Positions 6,021 through 26,800 are shown, numbered from the stretch's first letter. The stretch is 38,544 nucleotides of DNA from a virus (IMGVR_UViG_3300031825_000362:1-38544); one strand, 5' to 3'. Made by a program: numbers and translations. The notes: a model not told the origin generated them from the sequence alone.

Positions 6021-6056
6021 TAAAAATAGAGGGGGAGGGGGAGGTGATAAAGGACA
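6021..6056 (-). promoter_or_regulatory. Late promoter candidate P5 (tape measure block)
   Basis: On the minus strand TGTCCTTTAT (6056-6047) directly follows the TAG stop of the upstream gene. After exactly 18 nt comes TATTTTTA (6028-6021), close to the Bacteroidota -7 box TAnnTTTG, and 4 nt later the ATG at 6016. The spacer includes a pyrimidine-rich CTCCCCCTCCCCCTC tract. This is one of five sites with the same layout. Confidence 0.6.
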
Positions 6057-8189
6057 CTAAAGTTTCAACAATATTGCCTTAACCTTTGAGATTTTATTGC
6101 GGATACTGATTGAAAGGCTCTTAATAAAGTAAAGATTGTAATCAATCATCCTTTTCGACGAAGCTTTAACTGTAAGTACTTGTTTCGCATCCAGAAACAA
6201 TTCCTTCTCAACCAAAGCGCCTTCATTAATAGCGGTATATAATTTATCAATGTTTCTTCTCAGAATACCCGTGGTGTTGTCAAGCCTAAACGAATAATTA
6301 CCTACGATGTTTTTATTTATTCCATAAATTCCTGTGGATGCGTATAAATAAACACCGCCTTTTTGCACCGGTACCGGCCCGATTTGGTTTTCTCCACGGA
6401 GAAATACCAACCTGAAGAAGTTGTTGTTTAGGCCAATTCCAAACATTGGTGAAGAGCCTTTCCCTGGCATATATGGCAACAAAGCACTGTTCTGATCAGC
6501 TGTTCCTCCAGTGAGGTTAGCATTTGCCATCATCATTGGAGCCAGCTTGCATTTATGTCCTGAGGTCCCTCTGCCAATGATGTGCGGCGAGTAATTAAAC
6601 CCTTGAGATGTCCACACCTGAGCGCCTGAATCAGTAACCTGGTAAATTGTATTGGTGTCTTTCGCGATTGCCTGCTGATATTTTGAGGTAGGGCTTGGAA
6701 AATCAGATCTTGTAATGTACTCGCCTATAAATCTGGACTCATCCTTTTTTACAATTGTTTCAGTATCATTAAACTCATATTCAACGGTAAAGCCGTTCCC
6801 TTTCTCTTCCAGCGACATTTCATAATCTGGAGCCGCATTTCCTGTCCAGTCTTCAACGGTAGAATCTTCCAGTAAATTTTTTACCGTATCCATATTTACC
6901 TTACCGTTCATGAAATCAAAATCAAAGTTCACTCCAAGATTTTTCACCTCCTTAAGAAATTCGCCAACGGTCCAATCCGGCATGTGGTTTTTCAAAATTA
7001 CCCTGTCAGCATGTGTATTAATAGGTGTGCTGGAAAGCTCAGTTACTAACACATAGCTGCTTGTTTTAACAGCGAACAAAGGATTAGGAACGGTTACAGC
7101 AATATTGTTTTTAAGATAAGTAAGCACAACATATTTACCGACATCACCGGGCCCCGCATTTATTGTAAGAGAAAAGTTTTTACTGAAAACCTGAGTTGAA
7201 GTGTCAAACCAAACCGACACCGGCACCTGGCTATCATATTGCACGCCAAATTGAATAGCGTAATTAGTCTGTCCTGGTACCTGATACATGATTATGTCCA
7301 GAAAGAAATCAAACTGATATAACCCTGTTTTTTTTATGATATACTGAGGAGCTTGCCATGCCTGCAAATTATCATAAGTTCCTTCTGGTCCGAGTTGAAA
7401 AGAAATATCACTGAACGCGTTATATGTGTATTGTGAAGCCGGCTTAACAAACGTATTGCTATCTTCGGTACCGGCGTCGAGTGCCAGATTATTAAATAAT
7501 AATAGTTTTGAATATTCAGGATTAGACCAGAACGAGCCTCCTGGAGTAAGTCCTTCCAGTTCGAATATGCGGTTTAATAGCCAGAAGAAATAAATAAACG
7601 GAACAAGGCATTCGTTATTACCACTGGTAATGGTGTTAGTGTAAAACGCTCCATTAACACTATCCTGCCTGTTAACTACACCGTTGAAATCAGAATTGTT
7701 TCCATCATAAAAACCAGGCGCGTAAAAAGGCACAAATGTTATAGGGGAGTTTGCCCAGTTTTGATTTGAAGCAATATTAAACACGGCACCTCCTTTGGTT
7801 GTTGGAGTTGTTCCGAGAATAATATCATCACCCAGATCTATCTCGGATAGTTTTTTATCTGCGTTTTTTAAAGCTTTGATACCTTCGCTCACTACTATTG
7901 AAAATGATCTTTTTTTTCCTTTGGTAATTCTCAGCTTAGCTTTTTGATAAGGAATACCAAACAAATAAACGTAACAGTCGTAATCAGTAACCCTGTTTGA
8001 AACGTCTATGTAATTCGCAAAACCAAATGTTTTCAGGTTTTTTTCAGTTGCTGGAGCGTTGAACGGAAAACTGTAGTTTCCTTGGTACAAATCAGATATA
8101 AATGCCGGATTTACCTTCTCTAAACGTACTGATGCGTCACTAAGATCAATGAAACTTCCGTTTACTTCTATGTCAAAAAATCTAGGCAA
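6057..8189 (-). CDS. Large tail/baseplate structural protein
   Basis: 710 residues without signal peptide or membrane segment. The N-terminus (VNGSFIDLSDASVRLEKVNP) and the body are rich in predicted beta strands and aromatic residues, typical of virion proteins. Its start overlaps the end of the 539-residue gene by 8 bp, so the two are translationally coupled, and it ends at the late promoter for the tape measure block. By size and position, between lysis and tape measure genes, it is probably a distal tail, hub or baseplate-like protein of Bacteroidota siphoviruses. No catalytic motif was recognised. Confidence 0.7.
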   Translation of the reverse strand: MPRFFDIEVNGSFIDLSDASVRLEKVNPAFISDLYQGNYSFPFNAPATEKNLKTFGFANYIDVSNRVTDYDCYVYLFGIPYQKAKLRITKGKKRSFSIVVSEGIKALKNADKKLSEIDLGDDIILGTTPTTKGGAVFNIASNQNWANSPITFVPFYAPGFYDGNNSDFNGVVNRQDSVNGAFYTNTITSGNNECLVPFIYFFWLLNRIFELEGLTPGGSFWSNPEYSKLLLFNNLALDAGTEDSNTFVKPASQYTYNAFSDISFQLGPEGTYDNLQAWQAPQYIIKKTGLYQFDFFLDIIMYQVPGQTNYAIQFGVQYDSQVPVSVWFDTSTQVFSKNFSLTINAGPGDVGKYVVLTYLKNNIAVTVPNPLFAVKTSSYVLVTELSSTPINTHADRVILKNHMPDWTVGEFLKEVKNLGVNFDFDFMNGKVNMDTVKNLLEDSTVEDWTGNAAPDYEMSLEEKGNGFTVEYEFNDTETIVKKDESRFIGEYITRSDFPSPTSKYQQAIAKDTNTIYQVTDSGAQVWTSQGFNYSPHIIGRGTSGHKCKLAPMMMANANLTGGTADQNSALLPYMPGKGSSPMFGIGLNNNFFRLVFLRGENQIGPVPVQKGGVYLYASTGIYGINKNIVGNYSFRLDNTTGILRRNIDKLYTAINEGALVEKELFLDAKQVLTVKASSKRMIDYNLYFIKSLSISIRNKISKVKAILLKL

Positions 8190-9801
8190 TTGGATGGTAG
8201 CTGTATTCTGTTAATTCAGAGGATAAATCTTCGTAGTATTCTATAACAAACGCGAACAAGTTCTGGTTGGTTTTGTGTCGTCCCAGTTTTTTATTTGTGA
8301 TAATAATCGGTATCTCGGCTACCTGTCCGGTGTAGCTTTCATAAACATATTTTTTGCGTGATAAAAACAATTCTTCAGCATATTTTATTTCCTCTAAAGT
8401 CTTCCATCCGCTGTAAGCTTTAAGAATATTCGTTTTGCTGATAAATAACGTCTCGTGTTCTCCAACTGTTTTTTCATCTGTAAGTGTCCAGGTTCTTTCT
8501 GCAACTTCACTTTCAAAATCAACAGAACTTTCCATCTCGCCAAACAGTCTCATGGTATCGAGGCCTCCATCACTATTTGTAAAATAAATGAACTTTTCAT
8601 CCATTTTTTCCTCGTCATCAAACGTGTACGTAAAATACTCACTGATCACAGCGTTACCATTTGCAACGTCAAGCACGCAAACTGAAAATTTAACTACGGT
8701 GGAAGCTACAGAAACGCTACCAGGATAATTTATAGGAAACGCCCAAACTGTTCCTTCGTTAACGGAAGGAGAGGTGAAGTGCTGATTAGAGGTTGTTACA
8801 TTACCGTATTTGTCATATAGTGCATACCTGATGCATGCGTTACCAGATAAGGTGGTTGGAAAAATAAAATACAGATATTCAACCTGCCGGCGGCTAATTA
8901 CTTTTTCCCGTGGTTGGCGAGTAAGAAAAGATTGATAAAAATAATAGAACGTTGAAATCTGTGAATCTGGAATGTTCCTTGCATCAACCTTTGAAAATCC
9001 TGCTTTTAAAACGTCATACTTTATTGTGGTATATCCGTCTCCACCAGGCAGGAGTATTCCGGAAGGTGAAATTGTGGTTGTTTGCTGAACGGAAGGCTCT
9101 CCATAGTACTCAAATATTTTAGCATAAAACTTTTTAGCTAACTGAGAGCAAAAGAAAGGTGACCATGTACCAAATGACGGGAGGCTGTAGCTTAAATGAA
9201 TATTTATAAACTCAGACAGGTCGCATTTAATTGTGAGGTCAACGGGTTCTTTGAAAAACTCGTGAATTTTTTCGAACGTGTTTGAATCGGCGGCCGTCTC
9301 CTGGTATATTTCAAGTTTTATTTTATACCCTGCTTTTGGCCTGTTAATAACAATACTGGTACCGGTAACTAGATTCTGAAAAGATGCGCCTGTTACAGTG
9401 GTTGCACTTCCAATTAAAATATAACTGGTGCCCGGATTAACAGATTCCAGATAAAGGCGCCCATAGCTTGCGCTGAAAATATAAAGAGGACTAAGTGTAG
9501 CATGTGTAGCTAATATACCAGCTAACTCAAATAAATAATCATCATTGCTTTGCCCTACTGTTTTAATCTTTATCTCATCAAGAGCAATATTGGTAGCCGC
9601 TTTAAAAGTAAGGGTAACGGCGCCAATAGCCCAGTTAATTGTTAGCGTGTCGTTAACTACAGCGTTTGAAAGATTGTAGAATACACCTTTCGATTTTAAT
9701 CCAAGGTTAACCGCCTCCAAATAATTATCGGTTGTAATCTCCACATGGTGAGGATTACGACTTAAATTATACTTAGTTGGAGAATGTACTACCGTCAGCA
9801 T
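8182..9801 (-). CDS. Large tail/baseplate structural protein
   Basis: 539 residues, beta-rich, with many Thr, Ser, Val and Tyr, no membrane segment and no recognised enzyme motif. It follows the holin-like gene by 1 nt and overlaps the next gene by 8 bp. Such tight packing with the 710-residue protein suggests that both are parts of one structure, most likely the tail tip or baseplate. A fibre-like or adaptor role is equally possible. Family unknown to me. Confidence 0.68.
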   Translation of the reverse strand: MLTVVHSPTKYNLSRNPHHVEITTDNYLEAVNLGLKSKGVFYNLSNAVVNDTLTINWAIGAVTLTFKAATNIALDEIKIKTVGQSNDDYLFELAGILATHATLSPLYIFSASYGRLYLESVNPGTSYILIGSATTVTGASFQNLVTGTSIVINRPKAGYKIKLEIYQETAADSNTFEKIHEFFKEPVDLTIKCDLSEFINIHLSYSLPSFGTWSPFFCSQLAKKFYAKIFEYYGEPSVQQTTTISPSGILLPGGDGYTTIKYDVLKAGFSKVDARNIPDSQISTFYYFYQSFLTRQPREKVISRRQVEYLYFIFPTTLSGNACIRYALYDKYGNVTTSNQHFTSPSVNEGTVWAFPINYPGSVSVASTVVKFSVCVLDVANGNAVISEYFTYTFDDEEKMDEKFIYFTNSDGGLDTMRLFGEMESSVDFESEVAERTWTLTDEKTVGEHETLFISKTNILKAYSGWKTLEEIKYAEELFLSRKKYVYESYTGQVAEIPIIITNKKLGRHKTNQNLFAFVIEYYEDLSSELTEYSYHPIA

Positions 9802-9802
9802 T

Positions 9803-9982
9803 TTATTTTTCTGGCACGTTTACTTTTGAAACAATTCCACCTATTGCAATAACAGCAGAACAGGCAAGCTTTGGCCACTCTTTTTCAAAATCAAATTCTT
9901 TCCAATCAATCGTTAACCATGCGTTAGCAACTGCTACTGTAATACCGACAACGGTCGCGATTAAACTAGCTCTTTTCTTCAT
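9803..9982 (-). CDS. Small two-helix membrane protein, holin candidate
   Basis: 59-residue gene, ATG at 9982-9980 and TAA at 9803-9805. The protein starts MKKRASLIATVVGITVAVA and has two hydrophobic stretches (about residues 6-23 and 38-53) separated by an acidic, Trp-containing loop, with a short charged tail. This is the form of a small class II holin. It follows the endolysin stop by 3 nt and precedes the 539-residue gene by 1 nt, so it is firmly within the operon. A holin would form membrane lesions that release the amidase. The assignment rests on topology and position only. Confidence 0.62.
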   Translation of the reverse strand: MKKRASLIATVVGITVAVANAWLTIDWKEFDFEKEWPKLACSAVIAIGGIVSKVNVPEK

Positions 9983-9985
9983 GAT

Positions 9986-10465
9986 CTATTTTTTAAAAAT
10001 GTTTTTATCATTAACACCAATACTTTTTAACCATGTAGGAACATGAAAAGATGGGCAGGCTTTAGAAGCAACCTGGTTGTGCCCCAGAACAATTATTTCA
10101 GGATAGCATTTAATAGTAGTTAATACATAATCCTGAAGTGAAACCCATTGCTCTGTAGTACGCGTGTCTTTAGGCTTCATGTTCTTGTCAACACCTCCAA
10201 CATACATTACGTGTCTGGAAACTCCGTTAAGCCCGATAGCTCCGTTTGTGATTTCTCGGGGCTGAACAATGTCATCACCGTTATAAGGCACAAGGTTCTC
10301 AATCTTACCATCAAGATGAATCATATCAGAGTATCCAACTTGTTTCCAGCCTCTGCCAGATGGCGGAGGAGAACAATGCATCTTGCGGATATCGTCCGAA
10401 GTATATTCTCTACCTTCAGGAGTAGCGGAGCAATGTATAACGAGATATTTAAGTTTTTGGCTCAT
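9986..10465 (-). CDS. Endolysin, N-acetylmuramoyl-L-alanine amidase (T7 lysozyme-like)
   Basis: 159 residues, an amidase_2/PGRP-type domain over nearly the full length. Zinc ligands match T7 lysozyme: His11 (VIHCSATPEG), His129 (LGHNQV) and Cys137 (KACPSFH), with Tyr45 and Lys135 at the positions of its catalytic Tyr46 and Lys128. It should cut the amide bond between MurNAc and L-Ala in peptidoglycan and lyse the cell. There is no signal peptide, so release needs a holin; a suitable 59-residue candidate follows immediately. The start overlaps the previous stop as TAATG. Confidence 0.93.
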   Translation of the reverse strand: MSQKLKYLVIHCSATPEGREYTSDDIRKMHCSPPPSGRGWKQVGYSDMIHLDGKIENLVPYNGDDIVQPREITNGAIGLNGVSRHVMYVGGVDKNMKPKDTRTTEQWVSLQDYVLTTIKCYPEIIVLGHNQVASKACPSFHVPTWLKSIGVNDKNIFKK

Positions 10466-10815
10466 TAATGAGGAGATTTGAATTGAATTTCTTCTGGCTT
10501 AATAAACTCAGGGAATCGGGATTTAAGGAAGAATTCAATGTTATTGACTTTGATCAGCGAGTTGACGCGGTCAATCTTATCTTCTTCCTGGTATGTTTTG
10601 AGAGATTTAACTGAAGCAAGCTGTTCTGAGAGATCTCTTTTTATTCCTATCATTTGCTCCGTGAATTGTTGCATGTGGAGCTGAAAAGCTTCAGCGATCT
10701 TTTTTTCAACCGCATTGGTAAGAACTGTTTGCGCGGCGAAAATACCGACCACAAGAGATGCGAATACTTTCGCTATAGGAATTAAGTCTTTCAGGAGTTT
10801 CCCGTTTATACTCAT
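10465..10815 (-). CDS. Membrane-anchored coiled-coil protein of the lysis cassette
   Basis: 116 residues. One hydrophobic segment at about 12-32 (IPIAKVFASLVVGIFAAQTV) is followed by a long charged helix suited to a coiled coil (33-100). It lies directly before the endolysin, with stop and start overlapping as TAATG, and is the first gene behind a late-promoter candidate. Plausible roles are a spanin-type or holin-partner protein. No lipobox is seen, so it would be anchored by the N-terminal helix. Confidence 0.65.
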   Translation of the reverse strand: MSINGKLLKDLIPIAKVFASLVVGIFAAQTVLTNAVEKKIAEAFQLHMQQFTEQMIGIKRDLSEQLASVKSLKTYQEEDKIDRVNSLIKVNNIEFFLKSRFPEFIKPEEIQFKSPH

Positions 10816-10820
10816 GAGAA

Positions 10821-10856
10821 TAAAAATCGGGAAACTGCTTGCGCTGATAAAGGACA
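10821..10856 (-). promoter_or_regulatory. Late promoter candidate P4 (lysis/baseplate block)
   Basis: Minus strand: TGTCCTTTAT (10856-10847), 18-nt spacer, GATTTTTA (10828-10821) at the -7 position, then 5 nt and ATG at 10815. The 10-mer is the loop of a small stem CGCTG/CAGCG. Its 3' flank CAGCGCA resembles TAGCGCA at the portal site, so these two copies match over about 17 nt. Confidence 0.6.
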
Positions 10857-10863
10857 GCGATTT

Positions 10864-11214
10864 TTAAGGGCTGTAAACAAATGTAGTCGCCTGGGCGGAT
10901 GATGTTGTTGACGCTCCGCTATAATTTACGGCTCTGATTCTAAAATAGTACAGGGTGATTGGAGCTAGTCCGGTAGCCGCGTATGAAGTTAAATTCCCGG
11001 AAACATTTATTCCTCCAACAAACGGTCCTGTCAGTGGACTTGTAGACAATTCAATTTGAAATGTCGTAACTGGCGACTGAGCGTCCCATGCCAAATTTAT
11101 TTGATCGTGCGAAACAGCCGTGGCTGTAAAATTTGTTGGAGCGTTAGGTACCGCAACCGGAGCGGGAATAACTACCGCTTCCTTTAATTTTATAGTTTTT
11201 AATACATCTGCCAT
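10864..11214 (-). CDS. Fibronectin type III virion protein
   Basis: 116 residues. After a short N-terminal module (MADVLKTIKLKEAVVIPAP) comes one FN3 domain (about 25-112) with the typical PTNFTATAVSHDQINLAWD start and the YYFRIRAVN strand. FN3 domains are common on the outside of tailed phages and are thought to bind carbohydrates or host surfaces weakly. It is last in a row of tail-tip or fibre genes. Its N-terminal stretch resembles that of the glycine-rich protein two genes upstream. Confidence 0.85.
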   Translation of the reverse strand: MADVLKTIKLKEAVVIPAPVAVPNAPTNFTATAVSHDQINLAWDAQSPVTTFQIELSTSPLTGPFVGGINVSGNLTSYAATGLAPITLYYFRIRAVNYSGASTTSSAQATTFVYSP

Positions 11215-11220
11215 AACTAA

Positions 11221-15712: not shown

Positions 15713-17026
15713 TTAAGCTTTTATTTGTGTTGTTTCTTCTCCTTTATCCAGGGTATTCATAAAACTATTTCTGAAACGGAACTCCACTTCTTCATCCCAA
15801 CCGTTATAGTATTTTATCAGATCGTTCAGTGGCTCAAGAATAATATCCTGGTGTGCCCTGATGGATAACATGTGAAGGTTATAGGCTTCGCGGATATTGC
15901 TTCCAGCTCCGCCCATACCGTTATTAGGCATGGTACCAATAAGGGCAGGATGTAAACCAATAGCGCTCATTTTATACAGAGATGCGTCTTTGCCTTCTTC
16001 CAAAAACTGCCCTTGTTTGATTTTATCATCAATAACAGTAATCTTCCACATGCTGTACTCCTTACCGAATCCGAAATCCGTTTTAAAAGCTGTAATAAGG
16101 CTGTTTCCTGCACGTTCGGCGCCTGACATTATTCCGGCAAAAGTTGTAAGCTCTGTTTCGCGTATTTTATTCTTTTCCTCAACTGAAAGAGATTGCCAGT
16201 TAGGATATTTAATTGGCCAGTACTGATCACTGATTTCAACATGATACTTAATATTCATCTGACGCTCCAGTAAATTCTTTTTGAATTTTGGAATAGCTCT
16301 GGATACATCCAGCCATCCGCTTTCACGAATACTGTTCCAGTCTGCAAGCTGATAGTAAGTTGAACCTGGTGAAGGATAAGAAAGCGGGTAGATATAATTG
16401 AATCCTTTTGTTGAGGCTTGTAAAAAAGCGGCAGCGTCATAATACGGATCTATTACCGGAACTTTCTGGGATGTTTTTTCATCTCCTTCAGGAAAATTCG
16501 CATTGATGTAACAGTTCTCTACTATACCTTTACTGTTCTGACGCTCCCATCTGCATTCTTCAGCAGATTGAACGCAAAGCTGAACCACTTTTTTTCTATC
16601 AGCCTGCAGTACGATTTCAGGAAAAATATTACCAAACCAAAACAGGTCCGTTGCCGCCTCAATCAAGTATCTTTTGATTGCGGATTTACGCATCCAATCT
16701 TTTATTTCTGCGTTACTGGAATCTTCAAGCGGAGTCATGATTTCTTTTCCACCCTCCATCACTTTTATTTTTCCCCAGATCAATCCGCCTGAATAAAGGA
16801 GGCGTGCTTGTTTATTTAAGAGCGTGCCGATTTCAGGATCTTTTCTTACATCGGTAATTACCTTTTGCGGAAAATCGTTATTAGCGTCCCATTTAGCGAT
16901 CTTTCCATCATCATCAGTTTTAATTGGAACGGAAGTGAAGCGCGGTACCGAATCAGTAACAATAGCAGAAATACTCTTCACATAGGCCGCTGAGAGATCA
17001 TCACTAAAAATTATCTCCTTATCCAT
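15713..17026 (-). CDS. Portal protein
   Basis: 437 residues. Features fitting Bacteroidota phage portals are the N-terminal FPQKVITDVRKDPEIGTLLN segment, the central wing-like region and the C-terminal IGLHPALIGTMPNNGMGGAGS motif followed by a long helix with QDIILEPLNDLIKYYNGW. The portal forms the dodecameric ring through which DNA enters and leaves the capsid and docks the terminase. The start overlaps the preceding stop (TAATG). Confidence 0.88.
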   Translation of the reverse strand: MDKEIIFSDDLSAAYVKSISAIVTDSVPRFTSVPIKTDDDGKIAKWDANNDFPQKVITDVRKDPEIGTLLNKQARLLYSGGLIWGKIKVMEGGKEIMTPLEDSSNAEIKDWMRKSAIKRYLIEAATDLFWFGNIFPEIVLQADRKKVVQLCVQSAEECRWERQNSKGIVENCYINANFPEGDEKTSQKVPVIDPYYDAAAFLQASTKGFNYIYPLSYPSPGSTYYQLADWNSIRESGWLDVSRAIPKFKKNLLERQMNIKYHVEISDQYWPIKYPNWQSLSVEEKNKIRETELTTFAGIMSGAERAGNSLITAFKTDFGFGKEYSMWKITVIDDKIKQGQFLEEGKDASLYKMSAIGLHPALIGTMPNNGMGGAGSNIREAYNLHMLSIRAHQDIILEPLNDLIKYYNGWDEEVEFRFRNSFMNTLDKGEETTQIKA

Positions 17027-17286
17027 TAAATAAAAATTTGATTATTATTAACTGACAGAATTAAATGAGTATGAACCGTGTGCGGATGATGCGAGTTGTT
17101 AAGTTGTTTAACGGTAATCGTATCATTATCCTTTTGGTTATGGGAAGTCCCAACCCGTACGGCGTTGCTAAGGTCAATGATCTGGCCTCCTTTTTTTCTG
17201 GATGCGTCAAAGGTTACGAAGCGAATGGCAAAAGGCCTGGATTTTTCCTCCGTAATTCCAAGTGCGTCGATCAATGAAATAGCCAT
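17026..17286 (-). CDS. Small protein preceding the portal gene, unknown
   Basis: 86 residues, MAISLIDALGITEEKSRPFA; no membrane segment or known motif, with a His-rich stretch NNSHHPHTVHTH near the C-terminus. It is the first gene behind a late-promoter candidate and overlaps the portal start by 1 nt, so it is co-expressed with the head-neck genes. Function unknown. Confidence 0.65.
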   Translation of the reverse strand: MAISLIDALGITEEKSRPFAIRFVTFDASRKKGGQIIDLSNAVRVGTSHNQKDNDTITVKQLNNSHHPHTVHTHLILSVNNNQIFI

Positions 17287-17290
17287 AATA

Positions 17291-17326
17291 CAATTATATT
17301 AAAGGCTGGTGCGCTAATAAAGGACA
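17291..17326 (-). promoter_or_regulatory. Late promoter candidate P3 (portal/tail block)
   Basis: Minus strand: TGTCCTTTAT (17326-17317), 18-nt spacer, TATAATTG (17298-17291), then 4 nt and ATG at 17286. It lies about 50 nt behind a strong intrinsic terminator, as expected where one transcription unit ends and another begins. Confidence 0.65.
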
Positions 17327-17615: not shown

Positions 17616-17665
17616 AAATTTGCGAAGCTTGTTAAAGGTTCTGGGGGGAATCCTTAGCAATGAAG

Positions 17666-17688: not shown

Positions 17689-17696
17689 TTTTGCTT

Positions 17697-18307: not shown

Positions 18308-18350
18308 CCGCCTTTTTTACGTTATATGATTGTAACTATTATAAATAGGG

Positions 18351-18563
18351 CTTTGCAGGGTGTTGTTGTTTTATAACCCTTTACTACCAAGGCTTTTAAG
18401 GCTATTGGATATAGCGACTAATAAAATGTGATGAAGGATAGCCCCTACCCGCAATACACTACAGGGTATTGCACCAATGAGATAGCCCTTAGGTGGGCAT
18501 AAGTGTTAGGGATTGAAGTAAGCTACCATGTAGCACGGAAAGCCCGGGCGAAGCAACACCCTA
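18351..18563 (+). repeat. Structured intergenic element, possible dispersed Bacteroidota repeat
   Basis: A 9-bp perfect inverted repeat AGGGTGTTG (18357-18365) and CAACACCCT (18554-18562) encloses further stems: GCAATAC/GTATTGC (18451-18472), GCCC/GGGC (18485-18498), GCTAC/GTAGC (18522-18534), and the palindrome GCCCGGGC. The plus strand reads TTAGGGATTGAAG ... CGGAAAGCCCGG, resembling a recurrent intergenic repeat I recall from Bacteroidota genomes. The outer arm overlaps the terL stop codon. No open frame fits here. Confidence 0.5.
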
Positions 18564-20051
18564 CACAAAGAATCCTGGTTGTGCTAAACCGTCCTTATAC
18601 TTAAAGAATATTAGTGTATCAAAGGCATCGCTAAAGTGTGTTGTCTCTTCATCTACCGCGTTCTGATGTCTCTCTGGTCGTTTGTCTTTCTCGATCCCGT
18701 TCCTGCCTTCCACTGTTCCTGCCTGTTGTATTGATGTGATAAGGTTCTTACAATGAAACTTATTAATCCTGATGACTGGTGTTTGTATTGATTCTTCCTT
18801 GAACACTATATCAAAGAATATATACTTAGTATCATGCCTTGGTGCCTGCCCGCAATATATCCTGTTAACGGTCCATCCATTTGCTTCCAACACTTTAGTA
18901 AACTCATCAGCAAAGGTGGTGGTTCTCACTGCGTCTCTGTACATGGCCGTGTGATCATAGTAGTAATTAACTTCTTTTTTAGCGTGACTACCGTAATACT
19001 TACAAAACTCTTTCGCCAGATCCATTATTGTTAATGGGGTTTTGACAAATAGCGCATTCAACACATTAAACCGGTTACGTGCATAATCTGGTTGGCCGCA
19101 CACAAGAGTATTGATTTTAGCACCGTAATCACATGCTAAGTCAATAGGCATGGACCTGATAAGGTCAGCATCCATCCTGCAATCAACCTCCCTCAGGCGG
19201 TTAATGTCAAATTCAAGGCCGAAAAGATAATCGTCATTGCTCGCATTGATTGTATGCAATATTTCATCAAATGAGGGATAAAATCCGGCAGCTACTTTAC
19301 CAGGGCGAATACATAAAATTTCAGCGTTGTATTGAAGATCTGTAAGAAGGCGTTTGTTTTGTTTAAAGAATTCCTTACCAAGATTGTGCGCATTATATAG
19401 GGATGAAGCTCTGAGGTATAAAATATCTTCAGGAGACAACTTTGCTTTTTCTTCCTGATTCAAAAACCACCTTCCGCGGAGTGTAAGCGGAGTACTGCTA
19501 GCGAACAATAGCGAATGGTGTAACCAGGTATGCTTAAACTTGTGAATATTGCCTCTGTTCGAAGCGAGCACATTATAACCAAGCTTATCAACATCAAATA
19601 AAACGGCCTCGTCTCCAATTACTGCATCAAGGTTTAATCCACGTCCACTGTTCGGATTATCAAGGGAAATTAACTGAAATCCGGCGCCGTTGTAAAAGGG
19701 AATATAATTATCATAATTAAGAGGAGGCTGGTATGCCTCGGCAAACTTCCATTCCTTCGGCGGCTTTCTACCAACAAAGTAATGAAGATCTTTTTTTATA
19801 CCGAGAAGCTCAAGTCCTTCAATTGTAGAAGGTAGAGTTCTAGTCAGAATTTGCTGATAGCTTTCGCCAACAATGCCGGTTTTGGAACGAGGCATGAAAT
19901 TGACAATGTCTTTCATGCGCCATCCTATAATTGTACTTTTTCCTGTACCACGTCCCAGTTCCAGATATGTCTCTTTTTTTTTGCTCGTCGCAAAGATCAT
20001 TTGCGGCACATTAAGAGTGATGGACTTTTGTGGAAGGTGGCTATTGATCAT
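18561..20051 (-). CDS. terL: Terminase large subunit
   Basis: 496 residues. The ATPase domain has Walker A GRGTGKST (33-40) and Walker B AVIGDE (Asp147-Glu148). The RNase H-like nuclease domain shows acidic residues at Asp308 (LACDYG), Asp366 (YYYDHT) and Asp475/Asp478 (HFSDAFD). The protein cuts concatemeric DNA and pumps it through the portal. It overlaps the upstream small-subunit-like gene by 11 bp and ends at a structured spacer rather than running directly into the portal gene. Confidence 0.95.
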   Translation of the reverse strand: MINSHLPQKSITLNVPQMIFATSKKKETYLELGRGTGKSTIIGWRMKDIVNFMPRSKTGIVGESYQQILTRTLPSTIEGLELLGIKKDLHYFVGRKPPKEWKFAEAYQPPLNYDNYIPFYNGAGFQLISLDNPNSGRGLNLDAVIGDEAVLFDVDKLGYNVLASNRGNIHKFKHTWLHHSLLFASSTPLTLRGRWFLNQEEKAKLSPEDILYLRASSLYNAHNLGKEFFKQNKRLLTDLQYNAEILCIRPGKVAAGFYPSFDEILHTINASNDDYLFGLEFDINRLREVDCRMDADLIRSMPIDLACDYGAKINTLVCGQPDYARNRFNVLNALFVKTPLTIMDLAKEFCKYYGSHAKKEVNYYYDHTAMYRDAVRTTTFADEFTKVLEANGWTVNRIYCGQAPRHDTKYIFFDIVFKEESIQTPVIRINKFHCKNLITSIQQAGTVEGRNGIEKDKRPERHQNAVDEETTHFSDAFDTLIFFKYKDGLAQPGFFV

Positions 20052-20915: not shown

Positions 20916-21517
20916 TAATAAATTTTTTGATCGTTTAATACTCGTTTCATCCACTCCATGTGAAAATTGGCTGTAGAAGTTCTTGTGCTTATAATTCCGG
21001 CCTCAATTCTGGGATTATTGCTAAGATTAGCGGAAGTGACGATAGTTACTGAAAAATAAGGGTAATTCAACACAAGCACTTTCGCATGGTTTTTTGTTAG
21101 AGTGTATTTATTGAAAAGACCTTCTACAAGCTGGAACCCTTTCGTGTCAATTGTTTTAATCCTGTAATCAAAAACCCCGAAAAGATCCTTCAGCTCACCG
21201 CTATCTTTCATTTTAAGCAACGATCTTGCCGGAGCTTCTTTAACCGCCCAAGTAGAGATGTACAAATTTGCGCCGGGCCCGTAATACTTTATCAACTGCT
21301 CCAGCAATACATGGAGAGAGAGATTTCCGGCCGAAACAAAATTAATATTCCGCACTCCTGCAGTAAGTAGGTTAAAAAGGCCTGCAATAAGCTTAGCACC
21401 ATGTCCGCTGATATTTGTTTCAGTATCATAGTCATCAGCCTCAAAACTTGTTTTAAGGTCAGCGGCTTCGTTAACCAGGGTAGTGATGTCTTTTGGTGAA
21501 AACAATTCGTTACTCAT
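20915..21517 (-). CDS. PLD-like protein of the packaging cluster
   Basis: 200 residues. The C-terminal half has NHAKVLVLN (about 143-151) followed by VTSANLSNNPRIEAG, resembling the HxK...S-x-N...E-x-G order of the phospholipase D superfamily. The usual Asp of the HKD motif is Asn here, and only one motif is present, as in single-domain nuclease-type members that act as dimers. The first half, with FVSAGNLSLHVLLEQLI, fits the same fold. PLD-like proteins cleave phosphodiesters in DNA, RNA or lipid. Its place before TerS/TerL suggests DNA processing, but activity is uncertain. Confidence 0.7.
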   Translation of the reverse strand: MSNELFSPKDITTLVNEAADLKTSFEADDYDTETNISGHGAKLIAGLFNLLTAGVRNINFVSAGNLSLHVLLEQLIKYYGPGANLYISTWAVKEAPARSLLKMKDSGELKDLFGVFDYRIKTIDTKGFQLVEGLFNKYTLTKNHAKVLVLNYPYFSVTIVTSANLSNNPRIEAGIISTRTSTANFHMEWMKRVLNDQKIY

Positions 21518-22148
21518 AGCGTTTGTTTAATAGCTCGGTTATTTGCTTGCAGACAGCCTGATACTCCGCAATTCTGCGTGGATTATTTTTAAGCTTACTG
21601 CGCTGAGATCTTAATAGTTTTAACTGATACTCCGTTTCATAGTTTTTTTCAAGCTTAGCAGGAAGTTTTATAGCCGGAGAGTCAATTTTTCTCATTGGAT
21701 CCGTTCCGGTTTCCTGAAAAGTATCAATTCGGGTAAAGATCATGCGCCGTTGAGCGGATAGCTCAACAATTCGCTTAGCGGCTTCATACCTGGTTTTATC
21801 ATCCGGAAAATATTCAAGGCGAGCGTGCAGAGAGCATATTTCTCTGATTATTGGAGAAAGCCTGGCATATTCTGTCCTGAGTTCTTCGGGAAGAGCTTCA
21901 AGATTTATAGCTTTTTTCGCATTCTTGGAGGCTGTGAATGATTTAAAACTATTCTGGCTAACATTGGCTTCAAACTCCTTATACTTCGTTTCTAAGCCTT
22001 CCTTAAGCTTTTTTCGGGAGTGCCTGTCTTCTACTTCAAAAAAACTGCGAAGTGAAGATTGCGGGTATAATTGAAAATACAAAGACACGCTCTCTTTGTA
22101 AGAAAGCGTGCCGTTTTTGTACTTAACTAAACAAACCCATACATCCAT
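21510..22148 (-). CDS. Hypothetical coiled-coil protein heading the packaging block
   Basis: 212 residues, strongly charged and helical; 170-210 is Lys/Arg/Glu-rich with coiled-coil character. No known domain recognised. It is the first gene behind late-promoter candidate P2 and overlaps the PLD-like gene by 8 bp, so it belongs to the packaging operon. Function unknown. Confidence 0.65.
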   Translation of the reverse strand: MDVWVCLVKYKNGTLSYKESVSLYFQLYPQSSLRSFFEVEDRHSRKKLKEGLETKYKEFEANVSQNSFKSFTASKNAKKAINLEALPEELRTEYARLSPIIREICSLHARLEYFPDDKTRYEAAKRIVELSAQRRMIFTRIDTFQETGTDPMRKIDSPAIKLPAKLEKNYETEYQLKLLRSQRSKLKNNPRRIAEYQAVCKQITELLNKRYE

Positions 22149-22154
22149 GGGTTA

Positions 22155-22190
22155 CAAATAAAGAAAATGGAAATTTCCAGAGAAAGGACA
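22155..22190 (-). promoter_or_regulatory. Late promoter candidate P2 (packaging block)
   Basis: Minus strand: TGTCCTTTCT (22190-22181; one mismatch to the 10-mer) directly follows the TGA stop of the 89-residue gene; 18-nt spacer; TTTATTTG (22162-22155); 6 nt; ATG at 22148. The spacer contains the palindrome TGGAAATTTCCA. Confidence 0.55.
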
Positions 22191-22460
22191 TCAGGCCGGC
22201 ATAATCATCCAGAATGACGTTGCCGAATCTTCCAGAGTAGCGGTCTTAAATCCGTTTTCATTCAAAAACTGGTACAGCATGGTTTCTGTGTAATATTCAT
22301 CCACAGCTATTCTGTTAAGTTTATCCAGAAACTGAAGCGTTGAAAACACCTCTCTGGCACTTTGATTATCCGGCGCTGCCTTCCAATTGACTGAAAATGT
22401 TTTCCAGGCAATATGCTGATTAATACGCTGCTGATTTTCTTTTTTTTCTTGTTGGTGCAT
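22191..22460 (-). CDS. Hypothetical protein with start codon in an inverted repeat
   Basis: 89 residues, MHQQEKKENQQRINQHIAWK; polar and helical, with no known domain. The first codons (TGCACCAACAAG) are perfectly complementary to a leader segment at 22485-22496, so the start can be closed in a 12-bp stem. It is an isolated accessory-type gene between the secreted protein gene and the packaging block. Confidence 0.6.
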   Translation of the reverse strand: MHQQEKKENQQRINQHIAWKTFSVNWKAAPDNQSAREVFSTLQFLDKLNRIAVDEYYTETMLYQFLNENGFKTATLEDSATSFWMIMPA

Positions 22461-22547
22461 AACAATAAAATTTGGTGGCGGGGTTGCACCAACAAGTACC
22501 CTTTCGAGTAATTATGTGCCGGTCATTACTGCTTCCGACTCCCCGCC
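22448..22547 (-). promoter_or_regulatory. Structured leader, possible translational switch
   Basis: Two helices compete. (i) GGCGGGG (22547-22541) with CCCCGCC (22483-22477) closes a 71-nt domain. (ii) CTTGTTGGTGCA (22496-22485) with TGCACCAACAAG (22459-22448) covers the start codon region (ATG 22460-22458). Inner stems TCGG/CCGG and GTAAT/ATTAC are possible. Base pairing is read from sequence; the regulatory role is inferred. No gene is seen between 22548 and 22620. Confidence 0.5.
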
Positions 22548-22620
22548 GTATTAATATTTGAATAATTGATTTAATCGGTACTTGATTGATGCATTGTAAA
22601 ATTACAAAGAAAAACCCAAG

Positions 22621-23187
22621 TCACCAATCCTTACTCTTAGCATGCCTAATTTTGATGTATTGTTCAATGTCATTGGCGGCATGATTAAACTTTTCCGAAA
22701 TGTATTCAGATAACTCCTTTAATTCCTCTTCCGCTTTATTACATTTAAATAAACGTTCAAGGTAACCTGCTTCAGGACAATTTGCGTTAAATGGAACAAT
22801 CTTTTTGGTGTATTTATTGCCCGGTTCGTAATTGTAATATATATAATTAGTACACTCGATTTTTAGCTTACTTTTTTTAGTTGCAACCTTAACATCACAT
22901 AATATCTTCATGTTGGTTATAAAGGCAAAATTTTGGACAGACGAGAATTTTTTAGTACTTACCCCTGCGAGCTTTCGCATGGTTTGATCTTCCTGCTGAA
23001 TTTTAAGACCGATATCAAAAAACCATTCTTTTGCAATTGAATATAGAATATCAGCCGAATAACTGCTGTCAAAGCTGATCACCTTTGACAGTGCGATAAG
23101 ATTAGTTGAAGAATCGACAGGAAGATAAAGCTGTGATCTTCCTTGAATAAATGCAAAAACCGCTATTACAAAAAATAATTTCTTCAT
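22621..23187 (-). CDS. Secreted protein, DUF4468-like (accessory/moron gene)
   Basis: 188 residues with a clear signal peptide (MKKLFFVIAVFAFIQGRSQ, cleavage near residue 18-19). The mature part has the pattern of the TBP-like-fold DUF4468 family common in secreted Bacteroidota proteins, e.g. SADILYSIAKEWFFDIGLK followed by strand-rich segments. It would act in the periplasm or outer envelope. It lies alone between structured spacers and downstream of a terminator within a late operon, the layout of a moron gene that may be expressed in the lysogen. Host benefit is unknown; surface change or exclusion of other phages are possible. Confidence 0.7.
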   Translation of the reverse strand: MKKLFFVIAVFAFIQGRSQLYLPVDSSTNLIALSKVISFDSSYSADILYSIAKEWFFDIGLKIQQEDQTMRKLAGVSTKKFSSVQNFAFITNMKILCDVKVATKKSKLKIECTNYIYYNYEPGNKYTKKIVPFNANCPEAGYLERLFKCNKAEEELKELSEYISEKFNHAANDIEQYIKIRHAKSKDW

Positions 23188-23190
23188 AAT

Positions 23191-23270
23191 AAAAAAATCC
23201 GGGATGCGTCAAACAAAAGTCACAGCGTGTGAAATTGAATTGAGGGCCTTGCGGCTACCTCCATCCCGGA
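23191..23270 (-). ncRNA. Candidate structured small RNA or leader (three-way junction)
   Basis: Minus strand: a 9-bp closing helix TCCGGGATG (23270-23262) / CATCCCGGA (23206-23198) encloses two hairpins: GAGG-TA-GCC-GCAA-GGC-CCTC with a GNRA tetraloop (23261-23242) and TCACA-CGC-TGTGA (23232-23220). TTTTTTT (23197-23191) follows directly. A TAnnTTTG box ends 5 nt upstream of the first helix base. The U-tract ends 3 nt before the ATG of the secreted protein gene, so the element could be a free RNA, an attenuator, or both. Confidence 0.55.
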
Positions 23271-23275
23271 GATTA

Positions 23276-23283
23276 CAAATATA
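23276..23283 (-). promoter_or_regulatory. -7 promoter box before the structured RNA
   Basis: Minus strand TATATTTG, an exact match to TAnnTTTG, just behind a terminator. Transcription would start near 23270, the first base of the three-way-junction element. No TTTG -33 element is seen at the usual spacing. Confidence 0.5.
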
Positions 23284-23286
23284 AAA

Positions 23287-23316
23287 AAAAAGACCTGCAT
23301 ACACTGCAGGTCTTTT
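23287..23316 (-). terminator. Intrinsic terminator
   Basis: GACCTGCA/TGCAGGTC (23292-23299/23305-23312) with loop TACAC, extended by an A/T stem; on the minus strand it ends in TTTTTTTTTATA. It lies 23 nt behind the stop of the 68-residue gene and ends the capsid/tail-tube transcript. Confidence 0.85.
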
Positions 23317-23338
23317 AATTGTCAAGTAATCCCTTAAA

Positions 23339-23545
23339 TTACTTTTTCTCTGGCGTGCCAGGCTTTTGAACCAGCACGTCAAAGCCCTCTTTAACCAGCG
23401 CGTCAGCTTCTTCAACGCTGATGGTGCGCAAGTCGAATTCTTTTCCGTTCCAACGGTAAGCGCCAATAGCGCATCCAGGCTTAACGGTATATTTGTTAGA
23501 TACCGCATTAGGGAGCGTTCCTGATTTGTCTTCTTTTTTTTCCAT
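23339..23545 (-). CDS. Small structural-operon protein, unknown
   Basis: 68 residues, charged, with a compact core YTVKPGCAIGAYRWNGKEFD and ISVEEADALVKEGFDVLV. No membrane segment. It is the last gene of the capsid/tail-tube unit, between an attenuator-like hairpin and a strong terminator. The pattern resembles small phage head or head-tail accessory proteins. Function not established. Confidence 0.65.
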   Translation of the reverse strand: MEKKEDKSGTLPNAVSNKYTVKPGCAIGAYRWNGKEFDLRTISVEEADALVKEGFDVLVQKPGTPEKK

Positions 23546-23563
23546 TTTTTTATAAAGGTTAAA

Positions 23564-23582
23564 GCGGGCTCATTGAGCCCGC
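23564..23582 (-). terminator. Attenuator-like hairpin
   Basis: GCGGGCTC/GAGCCCGC (23564-23571/23575-23582) with a 3-nt loop, in the 53-nt gap behind the tail tube gene. The minus-strand tract TTTAACCTTT is weak, so partial termination or mRNA 3'-end protection is likely. Confidence 0.55.
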
Positions 23583-23598
23583 CTGATTAAACAAACTG

Positions 23599-24132
23599 TT
23601 ATGGTGCCGGAGTTAACGTGATAGCTCCTGAGTACACAAGGTTTTTAGGCCCCATGCTTTCAACCTCGAAGATGTACCCGCGAATACCACCGCTGTTAGT
23701 GCCTGTTTCAAACTTAGGTTTGAACTGGGCAAAAAACATTTGGGTACCAACCTGAAGAGTTGAACCGTCAGGCATTTCAGCAAGGCAAATGAAACGGTCG
23801 TTCTTAGCCATGTTAGCGAAACCGTGAAGTTTTGCTGAGCTTCCTGGAATGAACACTTCCATTTTCATTTTTAAGCTGATACCGTCAGTTTCTCCTTGCG
23901 GATCTGAGCTGAATTTTCCTTTATCAATTGTACAGTAACCTACCTGCCATTTCTTACCTGTTTTGAATGTATGAGTAGTAGTAATTTTTACTGTGTCTTC
24001 AGGAGTGGTTGGAGTAAGCGTTGGCGTTTGAATAGCCAAAAAATCAGCAACACGAGCGAAATAGAATCGCTGTGTGAGACCTCCCATGTTGTCGGTTTGG
24101 CCATCAGGGCCGTCTAAATCTAAATAATCCAT
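23599..24132 (-). CDS. Major tail tube protein (probable)
   Basis: 177 residues, beta-rich, single domain. It includes HTFKTGKKWQVGYCTIDKGKF and a C-terminal IRGYIFEVESMGPKNLVYSG, typical of tail tube proteins: antiparallel strands with few charged clusters and a size of 15-20 kDa. It lies close behind the major capsid gene with a terminator-like structure before the next gene, a common sign of a highly expressed structural protein. A capsid decoration protein is the main alternative. Confidence 0.6.
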   Translation of the reverse strand: MDYLDLDGPDGQTDNMGGLTQRFYFARVADFLAIQTPTLTPTTPEDTVKITTTHTFKTGKKWQVGYCTIDKGKFSSDPQGETDGISLKMKMEVFIPGSSAKLHGFANMAKNDRFICLAEMPDGSTLQVGTQMFFAQFKPKFETGTNSGGIRGYIFEVESMGPKNLVYSGAITLTPAP

Positions 24133-24154
24133 TTATATGGTTTTTAAAAAATGA

Positions 24155-24478
24155 TTACTTAATTACTTTGCGGATAACAGACGCGCCGATTTTTATAAGC
24201 TTGTTCTGAAGTTCAGAGTTTCTTACAATTTCTTCGTCGGTTACTTCAACACCTTCAAACTTTGCTTTAGCAATTAATACCTCATAGGTATCATTACCGT
24301 TTTCGAAAGTTGGAAGGTTTTTGCTCTTAACGCTTTCCTTGCGTAAAGAAGCGATCAACTGATCTTTTTCATCAGTTGCGGTTTTTAGAGCAGCGTTCTC
24401 TTTAGAGAGCTTCTCGTTTGAAGCTGTAAGGGTATCGATGATCTCCTGGGCTTCTGTTAAATTTTTTGCTTTGCTCAT
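24155..24478 (-). CDS. Small coiled-coil head/assembly protein
   Basis: 107 residues. The first half (about 5-50) is a coiled coil with SNEKLSKENAALKTATDEKD; the second half is a small folded part with TYEVLIAKAKFEGVEVTDEE. It lies between the capsid and tail tube genes and behind an intrinsic terminator. Candidates are a head-completion, decoration or assembly protein; none can be chosen on sequence. Confidence 0.65.
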   Translation of the reverse strand: MSKAKNLTEAQEIIDTLTASNEKLSKENAALKTATDEKDQLIASLRKESVKSKNLPTFENGNDTYEVLIAKAKFEGVEVTDEEIVRNSELQNKLIKIGASVIRKVIK

Positions 24479-24487
24479 TGCGTATTT

Positions 24488-24513
24488 AAAAAAAGGGCGG
24501 CGTTAACCGCCCT
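24488..24513 (-). terminator. Intrinsic terminator behind the capsid gene
   Basis: Minus strand: AGGGCGG (24513-24507) and CCGCCCT (24500-24494), 6-nt loop, followed by a seven-T tract. It is 27 nt behind the major capsid stop and just upstream of the next gene, so it probably works as a partial terminator that raises the ratio of capsid to downstream mRNA. Confidence 0.8.
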
Positions 24514-24540
24514 GTTAAACAATTTAATTACTTATCAGGA

Positions 24541-25437
24541 TTATACCTGGTCGTTTACCGATAGAACTTCAATATCAGCGATCTGTAATCCAATTGGTAA
24601 CATTGGACGAGCTTCAATGATGTTGCGGCGAACAGAAGCTGCTACATCAATTTTTTCGCCATCCAAACCAACGCAAAGGTTACCATCAACAGTAGCAATG
24701 ATACGCTGACTTGTATTCATCCAGCTCTCAGGTTGCAACCAGAATTTTGAATTATCTAACTGGAACCGCCCGAATTCATCTTTGTTGAACGAACTACCGT
24801 AGGCTGTGCGATAATTCTTCTTGTATTTGTCAAGCGTTCCCCATGACACATACACGGGACCACCAACTTTGCGAACAGAAGCCGGTAAATTCTCAACAGT
24901 TGCTTCTACTGAATCAACTGCGTTTGCCGCTGTTACTGCTCCTGTAACAACCGGAGTAAGTGTAAGGCCTGTAATTTCGTTCGCAATAATGGTTCCCCAT
25001 CCTGTGGCAATTGATGCGGCGTTGGCACCGGCAGCATTGTACACACCAAGATAAAGCGTATTATCATTGATTTTAGACCAGTAGTTTCTTGCCATTTCCG
25101 CTGTCATGAATTGAGCGAACGGAGTTTTAGTTCCATCGTTCAAATACTTATTGCGGAAGTTTTCAGGATCAATATCCATATCCCACTTAGACTGATTTAC
25201 GGTCAATACGCGGTCTTTTGGCTGAAAACCGTTACCGGCTATATCGTCCTGTTCGCGGTACGGACGAGGCTCGCCAGTCATGTTCCATTTAGGAAGCGGC
25301 AGCGGAGCTTTAACGTTTTTAAAAACCTGAATACCTGAAGATTTGAAGTTAACTTCGTTCAGGTGTTTAAGGATTAATTGACCTCCCCACTTAACAAAGC
25401 CGGTAGCGATCAAGGATAAATCTGGAGTTGTTGCCAT
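24541..25437 (-). CDS. Major capsid protein (probable)
   Basis: 298 residues. The gene follows the protease-scaffold fusion and has the composition of HK97-type capsid proteins: an N-terminal helical part, a central region FAQFMTAEMARNYWSKINDNTLYLGVYNAA and a strand-rich C-terminus with ARPMLPIGLQIADIEVLSV. An Ala/Val-rich insertion (about 145-185) could be a surface domain. The position directly behind protease/scaffold and the following terminator support high expression. No cleavage site for the protease can be fixed. Confidence 0.8.
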   Translation of the reverse strand: MATTPDLSLIATGFVKWGGQLILKHLNEVNFKSSGIQVFKNVKAPLPLPKWNMTGEPRPYREQDDIAGNGFQPKDRVLTVNQSKWDMDIDPENFRNKYLNDGTKTPFAQFMTAEMARNYWSKINDNTLYLGVYNAAGANAASIATGWGTIIANEITGLTLTPVVTGAVTAANAVDSVEATVENLPASVRKVGGPVYVSWGTLDKYKKNYRTAYGSSFNKDEFGRFQLDNSKFWLQPESWMNTSQRIIATVDGNLCVGLDGEKIDVAASVRRNIIEARPMLPIGLQIADIEVLSVNDQV

Positions 25438-25463
25438 TTTTTATTTTAAATTTTGGTTACTAC

Positions 25464-25823
25464 TTAAATAAGGCCTTTTTTTGCAAGCTCGGCCTTTTCA
25501 CGGTCAAATGACGTAAGCTCTTCTTCTTCATTTGAAGTGCTTGCGCTTTCAGCGTCACCTTCCTTTTTAGAAGTTGTGGCACCAGGATTAACCTTCGCCA
25601 GCTCAGCTATCTGATTATCCTTTTCACTGATGGAAGCCTGAAGCGTTGCCACTTGCGAGGTTAACTCATCAACTTTGGTTTTGTTAGCCGAAGCTTCAGT
25701 AAGGCTATCATTAATAGCTTTCAGATGATCATCTGATAAAGCCTCCAGCTCTTCAGGTTTTTCAAAACCTTTTGCCGATAAACAAGCGGCAATAGCTGCC
25801 ATGCTCACAAGGATTTTTTTCAT
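25464..25823 (-). CDS. Internal in-frame scaffold product (predicted)
   Basis: ATG 25823 (codon 308 of the protease gene) would give a 119-residue scaffold, MKKILVSMAAIAACLSAKGF, followed by FEKPEELEALSDDHL and a coiled coil. The DNA before it is AT-rich (TTTTAAACCAAACAAT on the mRNA strand), like other starts here, and the protein boundary matches the end of the peptidase domain. The N-terminus resembles a signal peptide but is probably a helix of the scaffold. Nu3-like expression is inferred. Confidence 0.5.
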   Translation of the reverse strand: MKKILVSMAAIAACLSAKGFEKPEELEALSDDHLKAINDSLTEASANKTKVDELTSQVATLQASISEKDNQIAELAKVNPGATTSKKEGDAESASTSNEEEELTSFDREKAELAKKGLI

Positions 25824-26744
25824 ATTGTTTGGTTTAAAATTTTGCTGTGATTGTTCAGAAGCTTTTTCTCCTGCTAGTTCAAATACTTTTGAAACAGCTT
25901 TTTCGAGTCCGCCTATTTCATCTATAAGCCCGTTTGTTAGAGCCTCTTTTGCTAAATATGTTTTCCCGGTAAGAACGTTTTCTTTTTTCGTGTCTATTTT
26001 TCCGGTACGATTTGACTTTATATCGGATAAGAATTCCTCGTTGAGAGGATTAAGAACTTCTTTCTTATAACGATCATAGTTTCCAGCTCTAGCTTCTGTA
26101 AATGCCGCATTTTTATCAACGGATGCGTCCGCGTAAATTTCGTGAAACTTAACGCCCTGTGACTCCCAAAATGGTCTCATATCCTCGAAAGAAGACATGG
26201 TACCAATTGAACCCACACGAGTTGTGCCATTTTTAGCCATCACATAATCAGCGCTGCTTCCGAACCAATAAGCGGCACTTGCCATAAGATCTTCAGCAAG
26301 AGTAACAACAGGTTTATTTCTTTCCTTAATAACACTTGCTAAGCTTTGTGTACCGGAAACCTCTCCACCCGGAGAATCAATTACTAAAACAACTCCAGAA
26401 ATATTTGGATTTGAATAAGCGTTACGTAAAAGGTTTTCGTAAGTCTTTGAACCAGGATCACCGCAGTTATCATACTTCATAACAGGTCCAGTCATACTGA
26501 TTACTGCCACTGAACCTGAATTTGCATTTGAAAAAGAAGTGTCTTTTGCTACATACGGAAGCGCTTCTGAATCAAATAACAATACTCGGTCTAATAAGTT
26601 TACTTCTGTTGGTGATTCATCAAGATCGTTTAGCGAGCTACCGCTTAAGATCTTTGAAACAGTTGCTCCGAAAGATATTGCTGATTGATTGTCAATCAAC
26701 CAAACACCATTGGTAATTGCGAGAAGTATGTTCTTTTTTGACAC
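25464..26744 (-). CDS. S49-family prohead protease fused to scaffold domain
   Basis: 426 residues from a GTG at 26744; the next in-frame ATG is far inside the protease domain. Residues about 75-285 form an SppA/S49 peptidase: VISMTGPVMKYD, the IDSPGG oxyanion loop (122-127), nucleophile Ser156 in MASAAYW and TRVGSIGTM. Residues 308-426 are a coiled-coil, acidic, scaffold-like part (LTSQVATLQASISEKDNQIA). This parallels lambda C/Nu3, where one gene gives protease and, from an internal start, scaffold. The protease would mature the prohead and remove the scaffold. The start lies within a hairpin arm. Confidence 0.88.
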   Translation of the reverse strand: MSKKNILLAITNGVWLIDNQSAISFGATVSKILSGSSLNDLDESPTEVNLLDRVLLFDSEALPYVAKDTSFSNANSGSVAVISMTGPVMKYDNCGDPGSKTYENLLRNAYSNPNISGVVLVIDSPGGEVSGTQSLASVIKERNKPVVTLAEDLMASAAYWFGSSADYVMAKNGTTRVGSIGTMSSFEDMRPFWESQGVKFHEIYADASVDKNAAFTEARAGNYDRYKKEVLNPLNEEFLSDIKSNRTGKIDTKKENVLTGKTYLAKEALTNGLIDEIGGLEKAVSKVFELAGEKASEQSQQNFKPNNMKKILVSMAAIAACLSAKGFEKPEELEALSDDHLKAINDSLTEASANKTKVDELTSQVATLQASISEKDNQIAELAKVNPGATTSKKEGDAESASTSNEEEELTSFDREKAELAKKGLI

Positions 26745-26765
26745 TGAATGAAATTTATCAGTGTC
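26740..26765 (-). promoter_or_regulatory. Hairpin covering the GTG start of the protease gene
   Basis: GACACTGA (26740-26747) and TCAGTGTC (26758-26765) form a perfect 8-bp stem with a 10-nt loop. The GTG start (26744-26742) lies in one arm, so the hairpin would restrict translation of the protease while leaving the internal scaffold start free. Confidence 0.55.
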
Positions 26766-26800
26766 AATATTATTTTATTGTAAATCAGTTATAAAGGACA
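26765..26800 (-). promoter_or_regulatory. Late promoter candidate P1 (protease/capsid block)
   Basis: Minus strand: TGTCCTTTAT (26800-26791), overlapping the last codons of the upstream gene; 18-nt spacer; TAATATTG (26772-26765). Unlike the other four, the start codon is 20 nt behind the box, so a short leader is expected. Confidence 0.6.

Follow-up and report, generated by a model that had tools for sequence, protein, structure and literature searches.

The window analysed here, a 38.5-kb viral record (38,544 nucleotides in full), carries five copies of a genuine recurring element, for which a chance origin is excluded. Bacteroidota phages and prophages have the same architecture at the head of late gene blocks, and the 198 sampled Bacteroidota genomes essentially lack it. 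We think it likely that the five sites are activator-dependent late promoters, at which a phage protein of the orphan family f154 would bind the upstream box and host RNA polymerase would act on the -7 element. This reading rests on the observed sites, their geometry, position, strand and phylogenetic spread, and on the co-occurrence of f154; the transcription start, leaderless translation, and DNA binding and activation by f154 are inferred.

Five copies of one element in the window

A scan of the whole window for TGTCCTTTMT gave five matches on the minus strand and none on the plus strand (0.38 expected), and none of 100 shuffled windows reached five. A preliminary description of this DNA had placed five such 10-mers, here called boxes, at the same coordinates. 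They are listed below with the features that accompany them.

26791..26800, minus strand: site 1 box TGTCCTTTAT, protease/capsid block; a homologous site with the same spacing occurs in genome G001
26765..26772, minus strand: site 1 -7 element TAATATTG, 18 nt past the box, 5/6 to TAnnTTTG
26738..26767, minus strand: site 1 inverted repeat TTGACACTGA / TCAGTGTCAA; the 5' arm begins within the -7 element and the 3' arm spans the GTG at 26744
22181..22190, minus strand: site 2 box TGTCCTTTCT, packaging block
22155..22162, minus strand: site 2 -7 element TTTATTTG; ATG at 22148, 6 nt on
17317..17326, minus strand: site 3 box TGTCCTTTAT, portal block; the gene family is preceded by a site in 34 of 43 genomes
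17291..17298, minus strand: site 3 -7 element TATAATTG; ATG at 17286, 4 nt on
10847..10856, minus strand: site 4 box TGTCCTTTAT, lysis block
10821..10828, minus strand: site 4 -7 element GATTTTTA; ATG at 10815, 5 nt on
6047..6056, minus strand: site 5 box TGTCCTTTAT, tape-measure block; a homologous site occurs in L001
6021..6028, minus strand: site 5 -7 element TATTTTTA; ATG at 6016, 4 nt on
27306..27875, minus strand: 189-aa member of the f154 family, 506 nt upstream of site 1, candidate activator of the late genes; no Pfam match
25464..26744, minus strand: head-maturation protease (S49), first gene past site 1
21510..22148, minus strand: 212-aa gene ahead of the terminase genes, first gene past site 2
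18561..20051, minus strand: terminase large subunit
17026..17286, minus strand: 86-aa gene ahead of portal, first gene past site 3
15713..17026, minus strand: portal protein
10465..10815, minus strand: 116-aa gene, first gene past site 4
9986..10465, minus strand: Amidase_2 endolysin, after the 116-aa gene
5594..6016, minus strand: 140-aa gene, first gene past site 5
2181..5591, minus strand: tape measure protein

At every site exactly 18 nt lie between the box and an 8-mer which, as had been noted, resembles TAnnTTTG, the host -7 consensus (matches of 5, 5, 5, 4 and 5 of 6). Summed over the five sites, this score is 24 at spacer 18 and no more than 14 at any other spacer between 6 and 30, with a P of about 7e-10 at one fixed spacing. 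Two of the -7 elements end in A and not G, and the exact pattern with the full TAnnTTTG found no match in the window because every -7 element there deviates slightly. The TTTG of the host -33 element is missing, and TTTA or TTTC of the box stands in its place.

The assignment of each site to the head of a late block is broadly right, as the sites precede the S49 protease gene, the gene ahead of the terminase genes, the gene ahead of portal, a small gene followed by the Amidase_2 endolysin, and the gene ahead of the tape measure. Head, tail, packaging and replication genes of the window all lie on the minus strand. What had been missed is an ATG 4-6 nt past the 8-mer at four of the sites and the wide occurrence of the pattern in related phages. 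Site 1 is the exception, where the predicted start of the protease gene is a GTG 20 nt beyond the 8-mer. The comparative evidence below supports a multi-site late regulon in which a putatively factor-specific element takes the place of the host -33; the promoters themselves are inferred from sequence, without transcript 5' ends. Between the two readers suggested earlier, a phage sigma-like factor or an activator that replaces -35 contacts, the activator fits better than a replacement sigma factor, because the -7 half is host consensus.

A TGTCGTTTAT at 27265 on the plus strand was considered as a further site. It is on the strand opposite to the five sites and within the start of gene 26789-27277, which has the residues MIND there in common with G001, and was taken as chance. 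The same gene, which precedes site 1, was also considered as a regulator and ruled out, being a late protein whose paralogue lies at 23599-24132. A Mu-like phage with Mor/C was ruled out by the terminase and portal genes in the window. At the left end of the window an alpha/beta-hydrolase gene, probably of the host, occupies positions 1-687, and a plus-strand 425-aa ORF lies at 911-2188 in the usual place of an integrase, which gives the record the look of a prophage edge. Its early end is cut, at 38544. A 155-aa early-region protein (30212-30679) carries a C-terminal SEC-C zinc motif.

Distribution in phages and host genomes

Relatives were collected by a tape-measure protein search, used in place of a terminase search of viral contigs that gave no match, and named phages by a terminase search; both groups were read whole. 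The TGTCCTTT box was found in G001, G008, Leef_1, Ingeline_1, Mea-Yong924-1 and MT835542, and the TGTCGTTTA box in G002-G007 and G009, with the same spacer and mostly with an ATG at +40. The 18-nt spacing thus recurs in relatives that were not selected by the motif. Across a set of 14 phages found by protein homology, the window included, the -7 match occurs in 38 cases at spacer 18 and in at most one at any other spacer from 6 to 30.

Pattern scans of viral and genome collections identified many more contigs. The genome matches were mostly Bacteroidota by title, and genomes with several matches carried them on one contig and the same strand, within a span of ~30 kb. Forty viral records picked by the motif alone yielded 124 relaxed sites, of which 40 were the seeds themselves; the control gave one match. 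Over 43 genomes, the gene directly downstream was most often the pre-portal gene (34 genomes), followed by the protease/capsid gene (23) and a pre-terminase gene (17), and in these genomes a site was never found directly ahead of terminase, portal or f154. The preliminary description had named matches confined to late gene starts, in a scan of the phage and related prophages, as support; the sites are nearly all on one strand (160 of 162 on the f154 strand) and lie at conserved late-block heads.

The 198 sampled Bacteroidota genomes gave two new matches against two control matches, and a host regulon was rejected on this background. A search of 200 genomes from the phylum of a Vibrio match gave none beyond that seed. 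Judged from this distribution, the element is a phage system and not a host regulon, and a putative phylum-wide class of late promoter.

Bacteroides phage BT-TP2 (L404:5411-5989), a natural test system, and Porphyromonas gingivalis phage021a (L405:9063-9536) carry f154 plus late sites. In BT-TP2, which infects Bacteroides thetaiotaomicron, 5411-5989 is the f154 gene and the sites lie at 10591, 17977 and 25811. The deposited Microcystis host of phage Mea-Yong924-1 (L041) is probably wrong, and a co-cultured Bacteroidota likelier, because this phage has f154 and Bacteroidota-type -7 elements and the other relatives of its terminase are either named Bacteroidota phages or unnamed.

Start codons and inferred leaderless messages

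In the 14-phage set, 33 of 48 sites have their first start codon at offset 39-41 and none at 42-47; for the rest it is at 48-72 or was not found. At most sites 4 nt separate the 8-mer from the ATG, and 87% of sites have a pyrimidine just before the A of that codon, as is usual ahead of a start site. In Flavobacterium johnsoniae promoters the -7 element spans -12 to -5 (T-12 A-11 T-8 T-7 T-6 G-5) and lies 4-5 nt from the transcription start (PMC6847099). With this published spacing and the 8-mer 4 nt before the ATG, +1 would fall on the A of the start codon, in which case most late mRNAs should be leaderless. The bimodal start-codon offsets are as expected if +1 lies at 40-41, and the empty offsets 42-47 fit messages that would be either leaderless or equipped with a leader of normal length. 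Most late mRNAs therefore are probably leaderless and start at the A of the ATG, an inference for which no 5' ends are available. Leaders exceed 10 nt in 87% of F. johnsoniae transcripts (PMC6847099), and a 2011 survey found a leaderless signal in one of 37 genomes of Bacteroidetes/Chlorobi (PMC3160421).

f154 as the candidate reader

The sole universal non-structural gene traced from one reference phage was f154, a very divergent orphan family whose member in the window is the last gene but one ahead of site 1. It is present in 36 of the 40 viral records selected by the DNA motif only, and in full length in three of 197 random Bacteroidota genomes. No f154 was found in the motif record G458. 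An early 153-aa gene of G443 that was apparently universal was discarded, its profile having drifted into f154.

A Pfam search of f154 members gave no match above the cut-off, including to the known late activators Ogr and Mor/C, and no related PDB fold was found either; known DNA-binding proteins gave no sequence or fold match. The AlphaFold models are confident (pLDDT 87.9 for the window protein and 90.5) and contain two strand-helix-helix (E-H-H) units followed by helices. They had no structural match in the PDB, and the sole significant match among viral models was the Leef_1 member. The models suggest, without proving it, a fused or tandem ribbon-helix-helix pair that could read an asymmetric box. 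The best reading is that f154 is the phage activator of the late promoters, a candidate by co-occurrence only, with binding and activation inferred.

Phages that bear f154 and lack TGTC[CG]TTT carry boxes of their own, TGTCCTATT, TGTCTTAAA and TGTCACAA, in nearly the same geometry. Flavobacterium phage 1H and phage laban looked like exceptions at first, having f154 without a known box; 1H has four copies of TGTCTTAAA at spacer 17 and laban five of TGTCACAA at spacer 18, all on the late strand, the first site lying at the end of the f154 gene. The G198 prophage, found only via f154, is without TGTCCTTT sites and has six TGTCCTAT sites instead, all on the f154 strand and all with the 18-nt spacer to a -7 element. 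TGTC is constant and the geometry is constant within one base; the next four to five bases vary, and the box variants fall into separate f154 clades. We lean towards the view that f154 founds a new phylum-wide family of late activators, with a constant TGTC half, an evolvable half and mostly leaderless virion mRNAs.

No such site was found in G096 (L337), an f154 genome of 63% GC with readable downstream DNA, and within 20 kb of the three Bacteroides f154 copies of G010 no gene start is accompanied by a site of this layout. Three more f154-like proteins, two of them matching in the C-terminal part only, occur in Bacteroides xylanisolvens (L331-L333), where no promoter of this layout lies ahead of a gene within 20 kb; they possibly represent another mobile element using the same domain.

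Proposed mechanism and relation to known systems

In the mechanism that we propose, f154 would be an early or middle phage protein that binds TGTC plus the phage-specific half-box at about -40 to -31, the place of the host -33 element. It would recruit or position the host RNA polymerase, whose primary Bacteroidota sigma factor would read the -7 element exactly 18 nt downstream of the box. Transcription would begin 4-6 nt past the -7 element, at the A of the ATG at most sites to give leaderless late mRNA, and the remaining sites would have a leader of roughly 10-30 nt. A single protein could in this way switch on all late blocks together. Against this model stand the lack of transcript data and of a known DNA-binding match, the exceptions G096, G010 and G458, and the two -7 elements ending in A. 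The phages also share a structural core, and the co-occurrence of f154 may partly reflect common descent.

Activator-dependent late promoters are already known from other phages, and their occurrence in several copies, at late-operon heads and on one strand is also found here. In phages P2 and Mu, several late operons are switched on together by a single phage protein (Ogr and C, respectively) that works with the host RNA polymerase, as is proposed for f154; however, the boxes and their positions differ, and no Pfam regulator family is detectably similar to f154. At T4 middle promoters the MotA box replaces the -35 element. These resemble the f154 sites in that a phage box near -30/-35 is paired with a -10-type element of the host, and differ in that no AsiA-like partner has been identified for the f154 sites, the genes are late and not middle, and the starts are putatively leaderless. 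The lambda cI mRNA is leaderless, with its start codon at the 5' end, a state inferred here for most late blocks of many phages. The Bacteroidota primary-sigma promoter (-33 TTTG / -7 TAnnTTTG) shares the -7 element and the 4-5 nt between it and the start (PMC6847099), whereas the phage sites swap the -33 for TGTC plus a phage-specific half-box, nearly always at 18 nt. In host promoters the -33 motif is barely visible, and the leader exceeds 10 nt in 87% of cases.

What appears to be new is the box with its evolvable half, the leaderless geometry and the protein family proposed as the reader. As the preliminary description had supposed, no account of such a Bacteroidota phage promoter was found, although only open-licence papers were covered and absence is not proof. 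If true, the phages of Bacteroidota, a dominant phylum in the gut and in the sea, would have a general switch for their late genes, and the orphan f154 family would gain a likely role. In phages that have not been cultured, the annotation rule TGTC, 24 nt, nAnnTTnG could point to late operons and their true start codons. The natural box variants and the separate f154 clades with which they pair are a ready source of orthogonal promoters for Bacteroides, and the evolvable half-box, if true, would amount to natural specificity swaps. Virion mRNAs would likewise be mostly leaderless in hosts that otherwise rarely use leaderless messages, and would allow a direct test of how translation begins in a phylum without Shine-Dalgarno use.

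Alternative explanations and inverted repeats

The same late promoters could be read by another phage regulator, for example the LuxR/GerE-type protein of PHROG 10300 encoded beside primase, which we consider unlikely. A GerE-type helix-turn-helix early gene is present in G003, G005, G006, G009, Leef_1, Ingeline_1, Mea-Yong924-1 and 1H, and the window record is cut where this gene would lie. However, the PHROG 10300 protein was rejected as the reader since it occurs in only 11 of the 40 motif-selected records, against 36 for f154, and G001 has no copy although its early region is present. We give little credence to a host-encoded sigma factor or activator that the phages borrow; it would suit a -7 half of host consensus and an element spread over the whole phylum, but no host regulon is visible in the 198 Bacteroidota genomes, and differing boxes in differing phages with the same geometry argue for a phage-encoded reader. 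Still less credible to us is f154 as a replacement sigma-like subunit that reads the whole promoter and displaces the host sigma factor: the -7 half cannot be told apart from the host's own and f154 has no similarity to sigma domains, for all that the spacing is rigid and the -33 region non-consensus.

In phage T4, start codons of late genes are hidden by folding of read-through transcripts, and the repeated segment could similarly act in RNA, with the box as part of the device. Stems of at least 6 bp with their centre in the -7/start region are about four times as frequent as in the control, an enrichment that is real, and at leader sites the start codon is better concealed with the native upstream sequence than with a swapped one (z -5.2). 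Leaderless sites, however, show no such hiding (z +1.5), and G-U is not in excess over A-C at stem ends (17 to 17). Strong stems occur only at a minority of sites, and a universal start-codon hairpin is not supported, yet the box and spacing are universal. An RNA device as the main function is highly improbable in our judgment, and folding is better taken as an added layer. The inverted repeats may limit expression from read-through RNA, a role that is unresolved. Their arms differ from site to site, and the G001 homologue of site 1 has a similar dyad with other arms.

The PHROG 10300 regulator, carried by many of these phages, has a cysteine-containing N-terminal part (L040:19714-20301, L041:859-1440 and L044:15323-15928). 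A second class of dyad fills the 18-nt spacer, with arms at 11-18 and 23-30 followed by a T-rich -7 element (for example G455 1793, G441 14346 and G453 17997), and resembles an intrinsic terminator placed inside the promoter.
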